Origin: an uncultured delta proteobacterium | Lineage (GTDB): Bacteria > Desulfobacterota > Syntrophia > Syntrophales > Smithellaceae | Direction of reading: 5' to 3' | Length of the DNA: 43,755 nucleotides | NCBI GenBank assembly: GCA_903904655.1 | Contig: CAIVDK010000419.1 | Span: forward strand, 1-43,755 | In this document: positions 36-13,517 of the stretch, piece by piece | Position numbering within the stretch: the stretch's first letter is position 1 | How the letters are laid out: each line of letters begins with the position of its first letter | Translations under genes and position numbers: made by a program | Notes under the pieces: generated by a model | Database searches by the model: none | Told to the model about the DNA's origin: nothing | What the model saw: the letters and a program-made list of their open reading frames with translations, nothing else

Positions 36-1709
36 CTACGACTCAGAACAAACCCTGTCTTTCCCGTTCTTTTTCCCCTGGTACATGAGTTGGTCAATCC
101 GGTGCACGAAAGCCTTCATATCTTCCTGTGGTTTGTACTGGCCAAGCCCGATGCTCACCGTCACATGGACGTCCTGACCGGGCGCCGGGGAAAAGATCTC
201 ATCTCTGAATTCCATCCGGATTCTTTCGGCGGTAACAGCGCCGTCCGCACTTGTCGTCATGGGCAAGAGGATGGTGAACTCCTCGCCGCCATAGCGATAG
301 GCGGAATCGGTCTGGCGCAGGCATCGTTTGACCACCTGGCCAAGTCGCGACAAGACCTGGTCTCCTTCGACATGGCCATAGGTGTCGTTAAATGCCTTGA
401 AATCGTCAAGATCGAGGACCAAGAGGGTCAAGGGCTGTCCGTAACGATCTGCCCGATCCATCTCCATCTTGAGTTGATTATGAAAATATCTGGAATTGTA
501 AAGCGAGGTGAGGTCATCGTTAATACTGAGTTCCCGGTATCTCTGTTCGCTTGCCCTCAGGGCCTCCTCCGCTCTTCTGCGGTCGGTGATGTCGACGGAA
601 AAACCGATGATTCCGATAATCCGCCCTTCTTTATCCCTGTAGGGTATCTTATCGGTTTGAACCCACTTTTTGCCAGTGGCGGTCTCCATGGGTTCGACTA
701 TGCCCGTCTTGGGTTTACCCGATGCGATAATTTCCTTGTCGTCTTCCCAATAGGTCGTCGCCTGGGCGGGATAAATTTCAAAGCCTGTTTTGCCCTCCAC
801 TTCTTTCCTGGACAGGCCTGTTTCCTTGGCAAGCGCCTTATTCACACGAATGAATTTATTTTCACGATCCTTGTAAAAGATCATAGTGGGAGACGTATCC
901 AGAATGGTCTGCAACTCTTCGCGATTCTTTTGTAAATCGTAGAAAATGAGACGGTAAGGATTCTCCAGGCCGGTCACGATGATCGCCCTATAAACGAGAT
1001 AGAAGGCAAATATTTTGAAGTAATGACCGATCAGGTTCGATAAGCCGTAGACGCTGATGTAAAAGGTGAAGGCCAGCTCCGAGACGATCGTGAGGACGAT
1101 CGACCAAACCATCAATCGCAAGATTATTGGATCAAACTTCTCGCTGCGGTGTAACAACAAGGCCAAGGAAAGTAACAGGATCAAGCAAATGACGTACTCG
1201 CTGACAATTTTAAAAAGGGTCAGCCCCTGGCCATCGACAAAGCAATCAGGAAACAGCGTGCCGGAAAAGACGGTCGCCAGCAGCAGAAGGGTTACGGAAA
1301 GATAAAAACCGAAAACAACGCGGACGTTCGGCTTTCGATCAAGAAACCATGGCGCGACAAGGAGAGACAGGCTTTGAAGGTAACGGGCGATGATCCATAG
1401 TTGCGTGGGCAGGTTGGCGTCGAATTCCCGAAAAATCCCCATGCCCTTGTAGGCCAGAGTGTGAACAAAATCGATGAGACCTACAAACAAAAAGGCGATA
1501 CTGAGGAACAAAACATAATTATTGGTTGTCAGGTGACGGGTATTCCAGGCGATCATGAAGAGAGAGAAGGCAATGACGATGGAAAAACTTTCCGCGACAA
1601 TATGAAAGAGAACATAGCTGTAGAAGCTTGTCAGATAAAGCCCCGCACACAGCAAAGTCCACGTGATCAGACTCCGGAAATTTTTTTTCATGATTGATCG
1701 CAATGACAC
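36..1709 (-). CDS. Membrane diguanylate cyclase: MASE3-like N-terminal membrane domain, PAS, GGDEF (GTG start at 1709 or ATG at 1691)
   Basis: ORF 557 aa; multi-TM N-terminus of MASE3 type; PAS segment (FYKDRENKFIRVNKALAKETGLS...); C-terminal RQTDSAYRYGGEEF with an RxxD I-site 5 residues before GGEEF. Confidence 0.92.
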   Translation of the reverse strand: MSLRSIMKKNFRSLITWTLLCAGLYLTSFYSYVLFHIVAESFSIVIAFSLFMIAWNTRHLTTNNYVLFLSIAFLFVGLIDFVHTLAYKGMGIFREFDANLPTQLWIIARYLQSLSLLVAPWFLDRKPNVRVVFGFYLSVTLLLLATVFSGTLFPDCFVDGQGLTLFKIVSEYVICLILLLSLALLLHRSEKFDPIILRLMVWSIVLTIVSELAFTFYISVYGLSNLIGHYFKIFAFYLVYRAIIVTGLENPYRLIFYDLQKNREELQTILDTSPTMIFYKDRENKFIRVNKALAKETGLSRKEVEGKTGFEIYPAQATTYWEDDKEIIASGKPKTGIVEPMETATGKKWVQTDKIPYRDKEGRIIGIIGFSVDITDRRRAEEALRASEQRYRELSINDDLTSLYNSRYFHNQLKMEMDRADRYGQPLTLLVLDLDDFKAFNDTYGHVEGDQVLSRLGQVVKRCLRQTDSAYRYGGEEFTILLPMTTSADGAVTAERIRMEFRDEIFSPAPGQDVHVTVSIGLGQYKPQEDMKAFVHRIDQLMYQGKKNGKDRVCSES

Positions 1710-8322: not shown

Positions 8323-8399
8323 TGGTCGGGATGGCGCGATTTGAACGCGCGACTCCTGCGTCCCGAACGCAGTGCCCTACCAAGCTGGGCCACATCCCG
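8323..8399 (-). tRNA. tRNA-Pro (anticodon CGG), CCA encoded
   Basis: CGGGATGTGGCCCAGCTTGGTAGGGCACTGCGTTCGGGACGCAGGAGTCGCGCGTTCAAATCGCGCCATCCCGACCA; full cloverleaf. Confidence 0.96.
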
Positions 8400-8907: not shown

Positions 8908-8997
8908 TCCACCATTTATCCAGAATGATTTTTTGACCCCTTAAGAACCTTTTGTCGAAAAAAGACAGATCTATTATTGATAAACGGGCCGTATTTT

Positions 8998-11313
8998 ATG
9001 ATGAACGCTTATAAAAGTATTATTGATCGTATCGGCAACACGCCTCTTGTGGAAATAACGAGACTCAATCCGAATAAAAAGGTGAAAATTTTTGCCAAGC
9101 TCGAGTCTGCCAATCCGGGCGGTTCCATTAAAGACCGCACCGCCCTGGTTATGGTTGAAAATGCCGAAAAAAGGGGAGACTTAAACCACAATAAGATTAT
9201 TCTGGAGGCAACCAGCGGCAATACCGGCATAGGACTGGCCATGATCGCGGCGGCCAAAGGGTATAAGCTTTGTCTCACAATGTCCGAAGCGGCAAGCGAA
9301 GAACGCAAAAAAATCCTGCGGGCGATGGGCGCAGAACTGCATTTTACCCCGGCGGCGCTGGGAACCGACGGCGCCATTGAAGTTGCCTATCGGATGCTGC
9401 GGGAAAATCCCGACAAGTATTTCGGTACCGATCAATTTAACAACGAAGACAATATTGCCGCCCACTATTTTGGAACGGCCCAGGAAATCTGGGATCAAAC
9501 CGCAGGTCAAGTAACCATGGTCGTAACCACTCTCGGCACGACCGGCACTGCGATGGGTCTTTCCAAGAAACTCAAGGAGTTGAGCGGCCGGATTCGGATT
9601 ATCGGCGTCGAACCTTATTTGCAGCATAAGATTCAGGGGCTCAAAAATATGCGCGAGTCCTACCGCCCGGGGATCTTTGATAAGAAGCGTCTCGATGAAA
9701 AAGTGAACATTCTGGATGAAGACGCTTTTGAGATGTCCCGCAGGCTTGCCCGTGAAGAAGGCATCCTGGCGGGAATGAGTTCCGGGGCGGCCATGTTTGT
9801 GGCCGCCGAGAAGGCCTGCAAAATGGAAGAAGGTCTAATCGTGGTCATTTTTCCGGACAGCGGCGAGCGTTATTTAAGCACGGAGTTATTTGCGGTCAAA
9901 GAAGAATTGGCCACGGTAAATCTTTACAATATTTTGAAACGTCAGAAAACACTTTTCCGGCCGCTGAAATCTGAAGAAGTGTTAATGCGTACCTGCGGCC
10001 CGACCGTCCATGACGTGCCCCACCTGGGAAATTACCGGCGTCTGGTGGTGTCTGACTTGCTGTGTCGTTATCTGACGTTCAAAGGATATAAAGTCAAACA
10101 TGTTCTCGACATCGTTGATTTTACGGATAAGTCGATTAAGGGTTCGGAAAAGGCGGCGATGGATCTGTCGGATTATTCCAATAAATATTTGCAGATTTTT
10201 CTGGACGATGCGCGATATTTAAATATTCGTCCGGGCAATGTTTACGTGAAAGCTTCCGAAAATGTTGATGCCATGCTCAAGATTGTCGAGAAATTAGTTG
10301 ATAAAGGCTATGCATACGAGAAATTGCATTCTGTTTATTTCGATATTTCCAAACTGGCTGATTACGGTCTTCTCTCCAATGTCGATCTGGCAAAAACCAG
10401 ATTAGGCAAATCCATTGACCTCGACGACTATGAAAAAGACAGCCCGGCGGATTTTGCGCTCCTGAAAAGGGCCGGCCTGGGGGAGTTGAAAAGAGGAATT
10501 TATCATAAGACGAAGTGGGGCAATATTCGGCCGGGCTGGCATCTGGAATGCGCGGCCATTTCCCAAAAATATCTGGGAACGGCTTACGATATTCATATTA
10601 GCGGGGCTGATGAAACTTTTCCCCACTGCGAAAATATCGTCGCGATTAACAAGGCGTTTTCCGGCCATAGCGGTGCAAATTACTGGATCGGCGCTGAGCT
10701 GATCCTGGTCGATGGGCGGAAGATGTCACGCTCGCTGAATAATGCGGTAACGATCGCCAATCTGAAGCAAAATGGTTACAGCGGCAGGGATATCCGGTTT
10801 TTTCTGCTGGGGATGAATTACCGCAAACCGATCAGTTATTCTGAGAAGGCCTTGCAGATGGCGAGGAACACCATTAAAAAAATTGATACTTTTATTTACC
10901 GGCTTTACGCAATTGAGGATGATGCTCAAAATTTTCCTGATGTCGATCAACTGATTTACGATCTTCATCATGGTTTTGAGAAGGCCTTAGACGACGATAT
11001 AAATATATCCGGTGCTCTGGCGGCGTTTTTTGATTTTATTGGCAAGATCAACGCGCCTTTGACTGAGGGGAAAATCAGCAGGTCGGATACCCGGAAAATT
11101 GTCAAGGCGCTTGAAAAAATAAATGAAATAGTTGGCATAATGGATTTTGGACAACAAACACTCCATCTCGATATTACAGAACTTATTCAAAAAAGAGAAG
11201 CGGCCAGAAAAGCAGGCCTTTGGCAAGAAGCGGATGTGTTGAGAAATCAGTTGGCAGGGGCAGGCGTTGAGGTTTTGGATAGTCAGCAGGGGACAATCTG
11301 GCGTTTTAAATAG
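8998..11313 (+). CDS. Bifunctional cysteine synthase (PLP) :: cysteinyl-tRNA synthetase fusion
   Basis: N-terminal CysK/CysM-like (IGNTPLVEI, NPGGSIKDR, EATSGNTGIGLA, TLGTTGTAMG); C-terminal CysRS from about 9916 (LYNILKRQKTLFRPL, CGPTVHDVPHLGN, PGWHLEC, FPHCEN, KMSRSLNNAVTI, GTIWRF); one uninterrupted frame. Confidence 0.94.
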   Translation: MMNAYKSIIDRIGNTPLVEITRLNPNKKVKIFAKLESANPGGSIKDRTALVMVENAEKRGDLNHNKIILEATSGNTGIGLAMIAAAKGYKLCLTMSEAASEERKKILRAMGAELHFTPAALGTDGAIEVAYRMLRENPDKYFGTDQFNNEDNIAAHYFGTAQEIWDQTAGQVTMVVTTLGTTGTAMGLSKKLKELSGRIRIIGVEPYLQHKIQGLKNMRESYRPGIFDKKRLDEKVNILDEDAFEMSRRLAREEGILAGMSSGAAMFVAAEKACKMEEGLIVVIFPDSGERYLSTELFAVKEELATVNLYNILKRQKTLFRPLKSEEVLMRTCGPTVHDVPHLGNYRRLVVSDLLCRYLTFKGYKVKHVLDIVDFTDKSIKGSEKAAMDLSDYSNKYLQIFLDDARYLNIRPGNVYVKASENVDAMLKIVEKLVDKGYAYEKLHSVYFDISKLADYGLLSNVDLAKTRLGKSIDLDDYEKDSPADFALLKRAGLGELKRGIYHKTKWGNIRPGWHLECAAISQKYLGTAYDIHISGADETFPHCENIVAINKAFSGHSGANYWIGAELILVDGRKMSRSLNNAVTIANLKQNGYSGRDIRFFLLGMNYRKPISYSEKALQMARNTIKKIDTFIYRLYAIEDDAQNFPDVDQLIYDLHHGFEKALDDDINISGALAAFFDFIGKINAPLTEGKISRSDTRKIVKALEKINEIVGIMDFGQQTLHLDITELIQKREAARKAGLWQEADVLRNQLAGAGVEVLDSQQGTIWRFK

Positions 11314-11323
11314 AAATAAGCTC

Positions 11324-12145
11324 ATGGAAAAATTAAGAAAATCTATCATAGCCGGTTCCTGGTATCCCGAAGATCCTTCCATTTTGAGGGGTGATATAGC
11401 CAGATACATAAAAAATGTACCTGATAGGGAGCTTACAGGCGATGTTGTAGGCTTAATTGTGCCTCACGCCGGTTATATGTATTCCGGTCAGGTGGCGGCA
11501 CATGCCTATAAGCTGATCCAAGGTAAAAAATATGATGCAGTTATTCTCATCGGGCCAAGTCACAGAGTTGCTTTCGGAGGTGTATCCATATGCAGTCAAG
11601 GGGCTTATGAAACACCTCTGGGCGTGATCCCTGTCGATGAAAATATCGCCTGTGAAATGAAACGCCTCAGCAGCATCATTATCGATCTCCCCGCCGCCCA
11701 TGCGCGGGAACATTCCCTGGAAATTCAACTTCCCTTCTTGCAGATTGCTCTGGGGGCTTTCCCCTTTATTCCGTTAGTGATGGGGGATCAGAATGTTGCG
11801 ACCTGTCGGGAACTCGTTGATGCTGTCTGTCAGGTGGCTAAAGATCGCCATGTATTAATTGTCGCAAGCAGTGATCTGTCCCATTTCCATGATTATAAAA
11901 AGGCAAAAGAGCTGGATGGAATTGTGCTCAGGCATATTCAAGATATCGATGCTGAAGGACTCTTAGACAGTTTGGCTCATGATAAAACCGAGGCCTGCGG
12001 CGGTGGACCAATGGCGGTGACCATGTTGGCCGCACACAAACTGGGCGCCCCTCAGTCGCTGCTTCTGAAATATGCAAATTCCGGGGATGTAACGGGCGAT
12101 AAAAGTTCAGTGGTGGGGTACGCATCAGCCGTTTATTATCGATGA
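11324..12145 (+). CDS. amrB: MEMO-family protein (AmmeMemoRadiSam system protein B)
   Basis: VPHAGYMYSG, GPSHRVAFGG, SSDLSHFHDY, EACGGGPM; ATG at 11324. Confidence 0.93.
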   Translation: MEKLRKSIIAGSWYPEDPSILRGDIARYIKNVPDRELTGDVVGLIVPHAGYMYSGQVAAHAYKLIQGKKYDAVILIGPSHRVAFGGVSICSQGAYETPLGVIPVDENIACEMKRLSSIIIDLPAAHAREHSLEIQLPFLQIALGAFPFIPLVMGDQNVATCRELVDAVCQVAKDRHVLIVASSDLSHFHDYKKAKELDGIVLRHIQDIDAEGLLDSLAHDKTEACGGGPMAVTMLAAHKLGAPQSLLLKYANSGDVTGDKSSVVGYASAVYYR

Positions 12146-12160
12146 AAAACAGAGGATAAA

Positions 12161-12709
12161 ATGGAATTAACTGATCAAGAAAAAAAGACGCTTCTGGACA
12201 TAGCCAAAAGAGCGATTATTGCGAAAGCCGGCAATAGAGAATTACCTAAATTAACAATGGATTTACCGATACTTAAGGAAAAAAGAGGCGCTTTTGTCAC
12301 CTTAAAGAAACGGGGGCACCTGCGTGGTTGCATCGGCTATATCAAGGCGGTTAAACCACTGGGAGACACTGTGCAGGAAATGGCTGTTGCTGCAGCCTTT
12401 CATGATCCGCGTTTCCCGTCTCTCAAGGGCGAAGAAATCCGGGATTTGAGCTTTGAAATATCTGTTTTAAGCCCTTTGCGAAAGATTCAAACTATTGATG
12501 ACATTGAAGTGGGAAAACATGGCTTGTATATTGTTCGAGGTTATAATTCCGGTTTGCTCTTGCCGCAGGTGGCCACTGAATATGGCTGGGACAGGGAAAG
12601 TTTTCTAAAAGAGACCTGCTATAAAGCCGGTCTGCCGCCCAAGGCGTGGAAAGATAAAGAAACTGAAATATATATTTTCTCGGCAGATTATTTTAGCGAT
12701 AAGGATTAG
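12161..12709 (+). CDS. amrA: AMMECR1-domain protein (AmmeMemoRadiSam system protein A)
   Basis: HLRGCIGYIKA signature, AAFHDPRFPSL, LLLPQVATEYGWDRE. Confidence 0.94.
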   Translation: MELTDQEKKTLLDIAKRAIIAKAGNRELPKLTMDLPILKEKRGAFVTLKKRGHLRGCIGYIKAVKPLGDTVQEMAVAAAFHDPRFPSLKGEEIRDLSFEISVLSPLRKIQTIDDIEVGKHGLYIVRGYNSGLLLPQVATEYGWDRESFLKETCYKAGLPPKAWKDKETEIYIFSADYFSDKD

Positions 12710-12877: not shown

Positions 12878-12953
12878 GCTGGCGTAGCTCAATCGGTAGA
12901 GCAGCTGATTTGTAATCAGCAGGTTGCGGGTTCAAGTCCCATCGCCAGCTCCA
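12878..12953 (+). tRNA. tRNA-Thr (anticodon TGT)
   Basis: GCTGGCG...CTGATTTGTAATCAG...CGCCAGCTCCA. Confidence 0.97.
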
Positions 12954-12969
12954 GATGAGTAATATCACT

Positions 12970-13054
12970 GGAGGGGTTCCCGAGCGGCCAAAGGGAGCAG
13001 ACTGTAAATCTGCCGGCGGAGCCTACGGAGGTTCGAACCCTCCCCCCTCCACCA
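12970..13054 (+). tRNA. tRNA-Tyr (anticodon GTA)
   Basis: Class II tRNA with long variable arm; GCAGACTGTAAATCTGC; CCA encoded. Confidence 0.97.
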
Positions 13055-13072
13055 GTTTTTATGAATGGGTAA

Positions 13073-13148
13073 GCGGGAGTAGCTCAGGGGCTAGAGCGTC
13101 AGCCTTCCAAGCTGAGGGTCGCGGGTTCGAATCCCGTTTCCCGCTCCA
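13073..13148 (+). tRNA. tRNA-Gly (anticodon TCC)
   Basis: GCGGGAG...CAGCCTTCCAAGCTG...CTCCA. Confidence 0.97.
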
Positions 13149-13188
13149 GGTATTTTTTTTAATGCCAGTTTAAAAGTTTAAGAGTCGT

Positions 13189-13264
13189 GCCCACGTAGCT
13201 CAGTTGGTAGAGCACATCCTTGGTAAGGATGAGGTCACCAGTTCAATCCTGGTCGTGGGCTCCA
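13189..13264 (+). tRNA. tRNA-Thr (anticodon GGT)
   Basis: GCCCACG...CATCCTTGGTAAGGATG...CGTGGGCTCCA. Confidence 0.97.
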
Positions 13265-13277
13265 GTGAAGGAGAATT

Positions 13278-13427
13278 ATGCGAAATAATATTATTTTAGC
13301 TTGTACGGACTGTAAGCAGAGAAATTATACGACGACAAAAAATAAGCGTACCATGCAAAACCGCCTGGAAATGAAAAAATATTGCAAGTTTTGCCGTGGA
13401 CACAAACTGCACAGGGAAACGAAATAG
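13278..13427 (+). CDS. rpmG: Ribosomal protein L33 (Cys+ zinc form); too short for the ORF track
   Basis: [49 protein letters not shown]. Confidence 0.96.
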
Positions 13428-13440
13428 TTAAAATTTGGAT

Positions 13441-13517
13441 AGGCCAGTAGCTCTAATGGATAGAGCGCCGGACTCCAAATCCGGATGCTGGGGGTTCAAG
13501 TCCCTCCTGGCCTGCCA
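13441..13517 (+). tRNA. tRNA-Trp (anticodon CCA)
   Basis: AGGCCAG...CGGACTCCAAATCCG...CTGGCCTGCCA. Confidence 0.97.

Follow-up and report, generated by a model that had tools for sequence, protein, structure and literature searches.

A single gene in the 43,755-nucleotide stretch of DNA analysed here (the window) encodes a CysM-type cysteine synthase fused to a domain derived from cysteinyl-tRNA synthetase (CysRS). The reading that we tentatively favour is that this protein is a CysE-independent cysteine synthase whose CysRS-derived domain was recruited as a putative tRNA-Cys-binding regulatory module. Comparison of the fused proteins with one another and with stand-alone homologues shows a fusion of apparently single origin, carried by cells that have a separate CysRS, in which the synthetase active site was lost repeatedly and the anticodon-binding residues were retained.

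The fused gene occupies positions 8998..11313 of the plus strand, is open throughout and encodes 771 amino acids; an in-frame TTG lies slightly upstream, at 8977. Its N-terminal half, a PLP-dependent cysteine synthase (residues about 7-299; 9016..9894, plus strand), contains the PLP lysine K45, SGNTG at 73-77 and an LKNM loop with K216. A linker of about 10 residues follows (300-309; 9895..9924, plus strand), with low pLDDT at residues 292-303; across the fused family this linker is 9-17 residues long. The CysRS catalytic domain (residues 320-623; 9955..10866, plus strand) carries CGPT at 333 (C333), HLGN at 342-345, WHLEC at 514-518 (C518), FPH543 and KMSRS at 575-579. Pfam placed a DALR_2 helical domain at residues 660-714 (10975..11139, plus strand) and a CysS_C anticodon-binding domain at residues 723-769 (11164..11304, plus strand), and GTIWR is found at 765-769 in the C-terminal end region. 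The other Pfam matches were PALP at 10-287 (E 4e-69) and tRNA-synt_1e at 320-623 (8e-78). NCBIfam assigned cysKM (TIGR01136) to the N-terminal half and cysS (TIGR00435) to the C-terminal half, both above the curated cut-off. Among proteins of solved structure, the nearest matches are stand-alone enzymes, either CysRS or cysteine synthases. Thus Pfam, NCBIfam and the relatives described below bear out the first-pass annotation of a single intact frame joining a cysteine synthase to a full CysRS, and the nearly absent linker that it placed near 9916 corresponds to the short linker described above. Among the motifs that it listed, SGNTG, CGPT, HLGN, KMSRS and GTIWR were found, but it had overlooked two departures from canonical CysRS: Ile547 stands where the fourth zinc ligand (E. 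coli Glu238) would be, and the second KMSKS lysine is replaced by Arg. Of the zinc ligands Cys28, Cys209, His234 and Glu238, the window protein has the first three (C333, C518 and H543) and lacks the Glu. In its anticodon-binding domain, R733, R737, W742, D746 and D761 correspond to R423, R427, W432, D436 and D451 of E. coli CysRS, the last of which we take to be a tRNA-Cys anticodon contact as well.

An uninterrupted match spanning the fusion was found in 33 of the 40 closest genomes, which cover the window's genus, family and order and include its own genome; two further genomes of this set had a match interrupted at contig ends. Among 297 genomes drawn evenly from the phylum, 116 contained the fusion across both halves. 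Because the same frame recurs in both sets, an assembly error or frameshift, against which the first-pass annotation had cautioned, is excluded. The alignment of all retrieved copies comprised 125 distinct fused proteins, which likewise rules out an artificial join of two genes. The named public genomes with the fusion are metagenome-assembled genomes (MAGs) titled Deltaproteobacteria, Desulfobacterales or Desulfobacteraceae. Our searches placed the fusion in deltaproteobacteria-type genomes only, confirming the earlier belief that an architecture of PALP plus CysRS occurs in this group; the public contig scan with the CysRS half used generic patterns and returned mostly ordinary CysRS. A search of 148 genomes from the phylum to which one Nitrospirota MAG belongs, run without a positive control, turned up no fusion.

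A quick tree built from 87 fused CysRS halves and 45 stand-alone CysRS sequences placed the fused halves in one clade apart from the stand-alone enzymes (SH-aLRT 100). The fused PALP halves also formed one clade (SH-aLRT 95; quick tree), beside unfused PALPs that share an IQGLKNM loop. The simplest history would be a single fusion event followed by vertical descent. The unfused subfamily with this loop (L262-L275 and L279-L281) shares about 50-59% identity with the fused half and was seen both elsewhere in the phylum, in other families, and in MAGs of Spirochaetes and Nitrospirota; it is likely a second family of CysM-type synthases. No CysRS gene adjoined unfused PALP relatives at 20 loci inspected with flanks of about 1.5 kb.

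The window's genome also encodes a separate canonical CysRS with CGIT, HVGH, WHIEC, FPHHENE and KMSKS, as well as a separate CysK, so both stand-alone genes that the first-pass annotation had proposed to look for are present. At least two CysRS-family matches were found in all 80 fusion genomes, and a separate CysRS was seen in at least 79 of them, the second match of G059 being absent among the matches listed. The presence of a separate canonical enzyme in its own and related genomes rules out the fused protein as the cell's sole CysRS for translation. We also observed short CysRS paralogues of about 400-440 amino acids that lack the C-terminal anticodon region (G033:C19, G035:C11, G038:C44, G163:C61, G285:C6 and G308:C32). 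Their length and taxonomic group are as expected for CysRS*, which belongs to a UGA-reading system of Desulfobacterales. CysRS* has no anticodon-binding domain (PMC9437257).

The synthase half appears to be a working enzyme that would combine sulfide with an activated serine to give cysteine. The PLP lysine, the SGNTG loop and the GxSxGA phosphate region are invariant in at least 98% of the 125 fused proteins, and this half is the better conserved of the two (mean pairwise identity of 0.65, against 0.44 for the CysRS half). A search for cysE (TIGR01172, match threshold E 1e-15) gave no match in 30 of 58 fusion genomes. In 29 of these 30, the fused PALP was the sole cysKM-family gene, as judged with a model that would also catch a cystathionine beta-synthase; the exception, G157, carries a weaker extra PALP. 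In contrast, all 28 fusion genomes with cysE had a second, stand-alone cysK that often adjoins cysE. The association between cysE and stand-alone cysK gave a Fisher's exact p of 2e-15, with the qualification that the 58 genomes are related and hence not independent. Because the same contrast was seen repeatedly within families f1, f20, f42, f89 and f100, the pattern is not the effect of one clade. Among fusion-free genomes of the phylum, 46 of 56 had cysE. Most simply, then, the fused protein would suffice for cysteine synthesis in these cysE-less genomes, with no need of O-acetylserine made by CysE.

The best candidate for the substrate of the fused synthase, and the one that we predict, is O-phosphoserine. 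The synthase half resembles the CysM enzymes of E. coli and M. tuberculosis (O-phosphoserine sulfhydrylase), including a basic residue in the substrate loop, and differs from them in that the fused protein has an additional C-terminal domain. The basic residue, K216, is invariant in all 87 representative fused proteins and aligns with R210 of E. coli CysM and R220 of M. tuberculosis CysM, a position that reportedly contributes to O-phosphoserine selection in some organisms (PMC3805590). However, a basic residue at this position is not sufficient for O-phosphoserine use, as E. coli CysM, which uses O-acetylserine, has Arg there. O-acetylserine is also the only substrate of C. jejuni CysM (PMC9855970). 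Moreover, the O-phosphoserine route is unconfirmed because classical serC, searched for with TIGR01364 only, was found in only 7 of the 30 cysE-less genomes.

The CysRS half has had a different history. We scored as main motifs the HIGH His and Gly, the KMSKS Lys and Lys-or-Arg, and the two zinc cysteines, and inspected the motif surroundings by eye in 16 relatives to guard against misalignment. All main motifs were kept in 56 of the 125 fused proteins and at least one was lost in the remaining 69; the HIGH His and KMSKS were both lost in 44. On the tree, the HIGH His changed 12 times, KMSKS 12 times, the first zinc Cys 3 times and the zinc Glu 8 times, gains and losses not being separated. 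On the same tree, positions equivalent to E. coli D436 and D451 did not change and R427 changed once; W432 changed 11 times when scored strictly as Trp, although an aromatic residue was retained in 99%. Among the 44 proteins without HIGH His and KMSKS, 43 kept each of R423, R427, D436 and D451 and had Trp or another aromatic at W432. Of these positions, R423, R427, W432 and D436 touch G34 of tRNA-Cys in PDB 1u0b, the E. coli complex (PMC12684709). The most decayed CysRS halves were observed in family f53 (L239-L242), in which the zinc cysteines, HIGH and KMSKS are all gone and the anticodon motif is retained.

These patterns bear on the suggestion, made in the first-pass annotation, that both halves are active and that the CysRS half charges tRNA-Cys with cysteine received from the PALP half, which would make the protein a channelling or auxiliary CysRS. 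The window's order retains HLGN, KMSRS, C333, C518 and H543 together with the anticodon residues, and the 56 proteins that keep the main motifs also speak for such a role. However, channelling is not a general function of the family, because HIGH, KMSKS and zinc ligands were lost in many lineages in which the fusion was kept. The case is weakened further because even the best-preserved members depart from canonical CysRS: none of the 56 has the second KMSKS Lys, W489, G510 and Q550 are gone from all of them, and Glu238 is kept in 38%. The nearly universal presence of a separate canonical CysRS also argues against it. Channelling thus fell as a family-wide explanation but may still operate in the window's order; overall we consider it rather unlikely.

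The retained anticodon residues also bear on two readings in which the CysRS half would not act on tRNA. One is that this half senses cysteine for feedback through its zinc and amino-acid pocket, in a strictly HisZ-like manner. In favour of this, two cysteine-pocket residues, W514 (E. coli W205) and H543 (H234), persist in 99-100% even among degenerate members, and CysE, the usual feedback point, is absent from half of the fusion genomes. However, the remaining zinc ligands were lost in whole lineages (for example, in those with TAHV, MMHL or IIHL), and the anticodon residues were retained there instead, which makes a pure cysteine sensor distinctly unlikely. The other reading is that the CysRS half is a ligand-free structural or oligomerisation domain. 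A conserved block specific to the fusion (RR347-348 and YEKDxPxDFxLLKRxxLxELKxG) could form an interface with the PALP half, and the residues of the anticodon-binding domain could be retained for folding, which also counts against a tRNA sensor. The surface residues that contact G34 are nevertheless far more conserved than the catalytic residues, and we regard a purely structural role as improbable.

Two further alternatives have very little in their favour. The first-pass annotation had mentioned a non-tRNA acceptor for cysteine, as would hold if the protein were an MshC-like ligase, or a cysteine persulfide synthase. Three zinc ligands without the Glu presumably resemble the arrangement in MshC, and MshC structures were among the structural matches of our model. 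However, MshC has no anticodon-binding domain, whereas this is the conserved part of the fused proteins; the match to TIGR03447 was far under its cut-off (174 versus 485 bits), and there are no conserved biosynthetic neighbours. A non-tRNA acceptor is therefore unsupported, the anticodon-binding residues being the part retained, and this reading is highly improbable. We place equally little weight on tRNA-dependent synthesis, in which the PALP half would convert seryl or phosphoseryl on tRNA-Cys into cysteine. The retention of tRNA-Cys contacts beside a cysteine synthase fits such a route, and SepRS/SepCysS likewise couples cysteine synthesis to tRNA-Cys. However, the SepRS/SepCysS proteins are unrelated to the fused protein, and SepRS was found in none of the 59 fusion genomes searched. 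In addition, many fused proteins have a degenerate charging site, and substrate binding by PALP enzymes involves a free carboxylate.

The surroundings of the gene were also considered. No neighbour is conserved around the fused gene outside close relatives, and genomic-context support for a regulatory role is lacking for this reason. A search for leader RNAs and T-boxes near the gene recovered tRNAs only: a tRNA-Pro upstream (8323-8399, minus strand) and a Thr-Tyr-Gly-Thr-Trp cluster downstream (12878-13517, plus strand), with no tRNA-Cys among them. These flanking tRNAs are conserved in several relatives of the order. Genes for AmmeMemoRadiSam system protein B (11267-12145) and protein A (12161-12709) lie directly downstream, and a MASE3-PAS-GGDEF diguanylate cyclase is encoded at the window's edge (36-1709, minus strand).

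An AlphaFold model of the window protein built with 27 sequences had a pLDDT of 86 and a pTM of 0.60, so that the placement of the two halves relative to each other is unreliable. Taken separately, the halves match CysRS structures and CysK/CysM structures, and the modelled CysRS half aligned to the tRNA-bound E. coli enzyme (1u0b_B) with a TM of 0.83 by target. The CysRS half resembles canonical CysRS (TIGR00435) in its entire domain order, fold, score above the cut-off and tRNA-contact residues. It differs in that the fused halves form their own clade, have an LLKRxxLxELKxG segment that is 4 residues longer, carry KMSRS, have another residue in place of the zinc Glu within the window's clade, show repeated decay of the active site and do not serve as the sole CysRS.

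We rate the fusion as belonging with the aminoacyl-tRNA synthetase paralogues that are attached to amino-acid biosynthesis. The HisRS paralogue HisZ is incapable of adenylation and mediates feedback inhibition of HisG (PMC9437257). Like HisZ, the CysRS half is a synthetase paralogue with an adenylation site that is often broken, it is tied to a biosynthetic enzyme for the same amino acid, and a separate true synthetase is present; by motif, the HisZ-like loss applies to the 44 proteins noted above and not to the window's own order. Unlike HisZ, which is a separate subunit that senses free histidine, the CysRS half is fused and keeps its anticodon-binding residues. CysRS* of Desulfobacterales and MshC are also CysRS paralogues that coexist with a true CysRS, but both lack the anticodon-binding domain, whereas the fused protein has CysS_C, its most conserved functional part. 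CysRS* and MshC are the only CysRS entries in a 2022 review of synthetase paralogues (PMC9437257).

In the regulatory model that we tentatively prefer, the synthase half would combine sulfide with an activated serine other than the O-acetylserine made by CysE, most likely O-phosphoserine. The CysRS-like half would bind tRNA-Cys, and this binding, probably differing between charged and uncharged tRNA, would set the activity of the synthase. Control by tRNA-Cys would then replace the CysE feedback that is missing from cysE-less cells, much as HisZ controls HisG. CysE is the usual feedback-controlled step in cysteine synthesis, and tRNA-based control would make sense where this point is absent. 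The more specific claim of a cysteine synthase switched directly by its cognate tRNA-Cys, according to charging, in bacteria without serine acetyltransferase is doubtful. The HIGH motif, KMSRS and Cys/Cys/His zinc ligands preserved in the window's order are a counterpoint, as a pure sensor would not need them. With its adenylation site largely preserved, the protein of this order might also bind cysteine and ATP or retain some charging; residual charging may persist in the window copy, in which HLGN, KMSRS and three zinc ligands are kept.

About half of the tested fusion genomes lack CysE, the textbook first step of cysteine synthesis, and the fused protein is then the sole cysteine synthase found. 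The fusion marks a putative cysteine pathway, together with a putative control device, for which we found no description in open-access papers. Among its relatives the synthetase domain grades from intact to dead, which provides a natural set of ready-made test proteins. If the CysRS-like half does read tRNA-Cys, the fused protein would be a biosynthetic enzyme controlled directly by the tRNA of its product.
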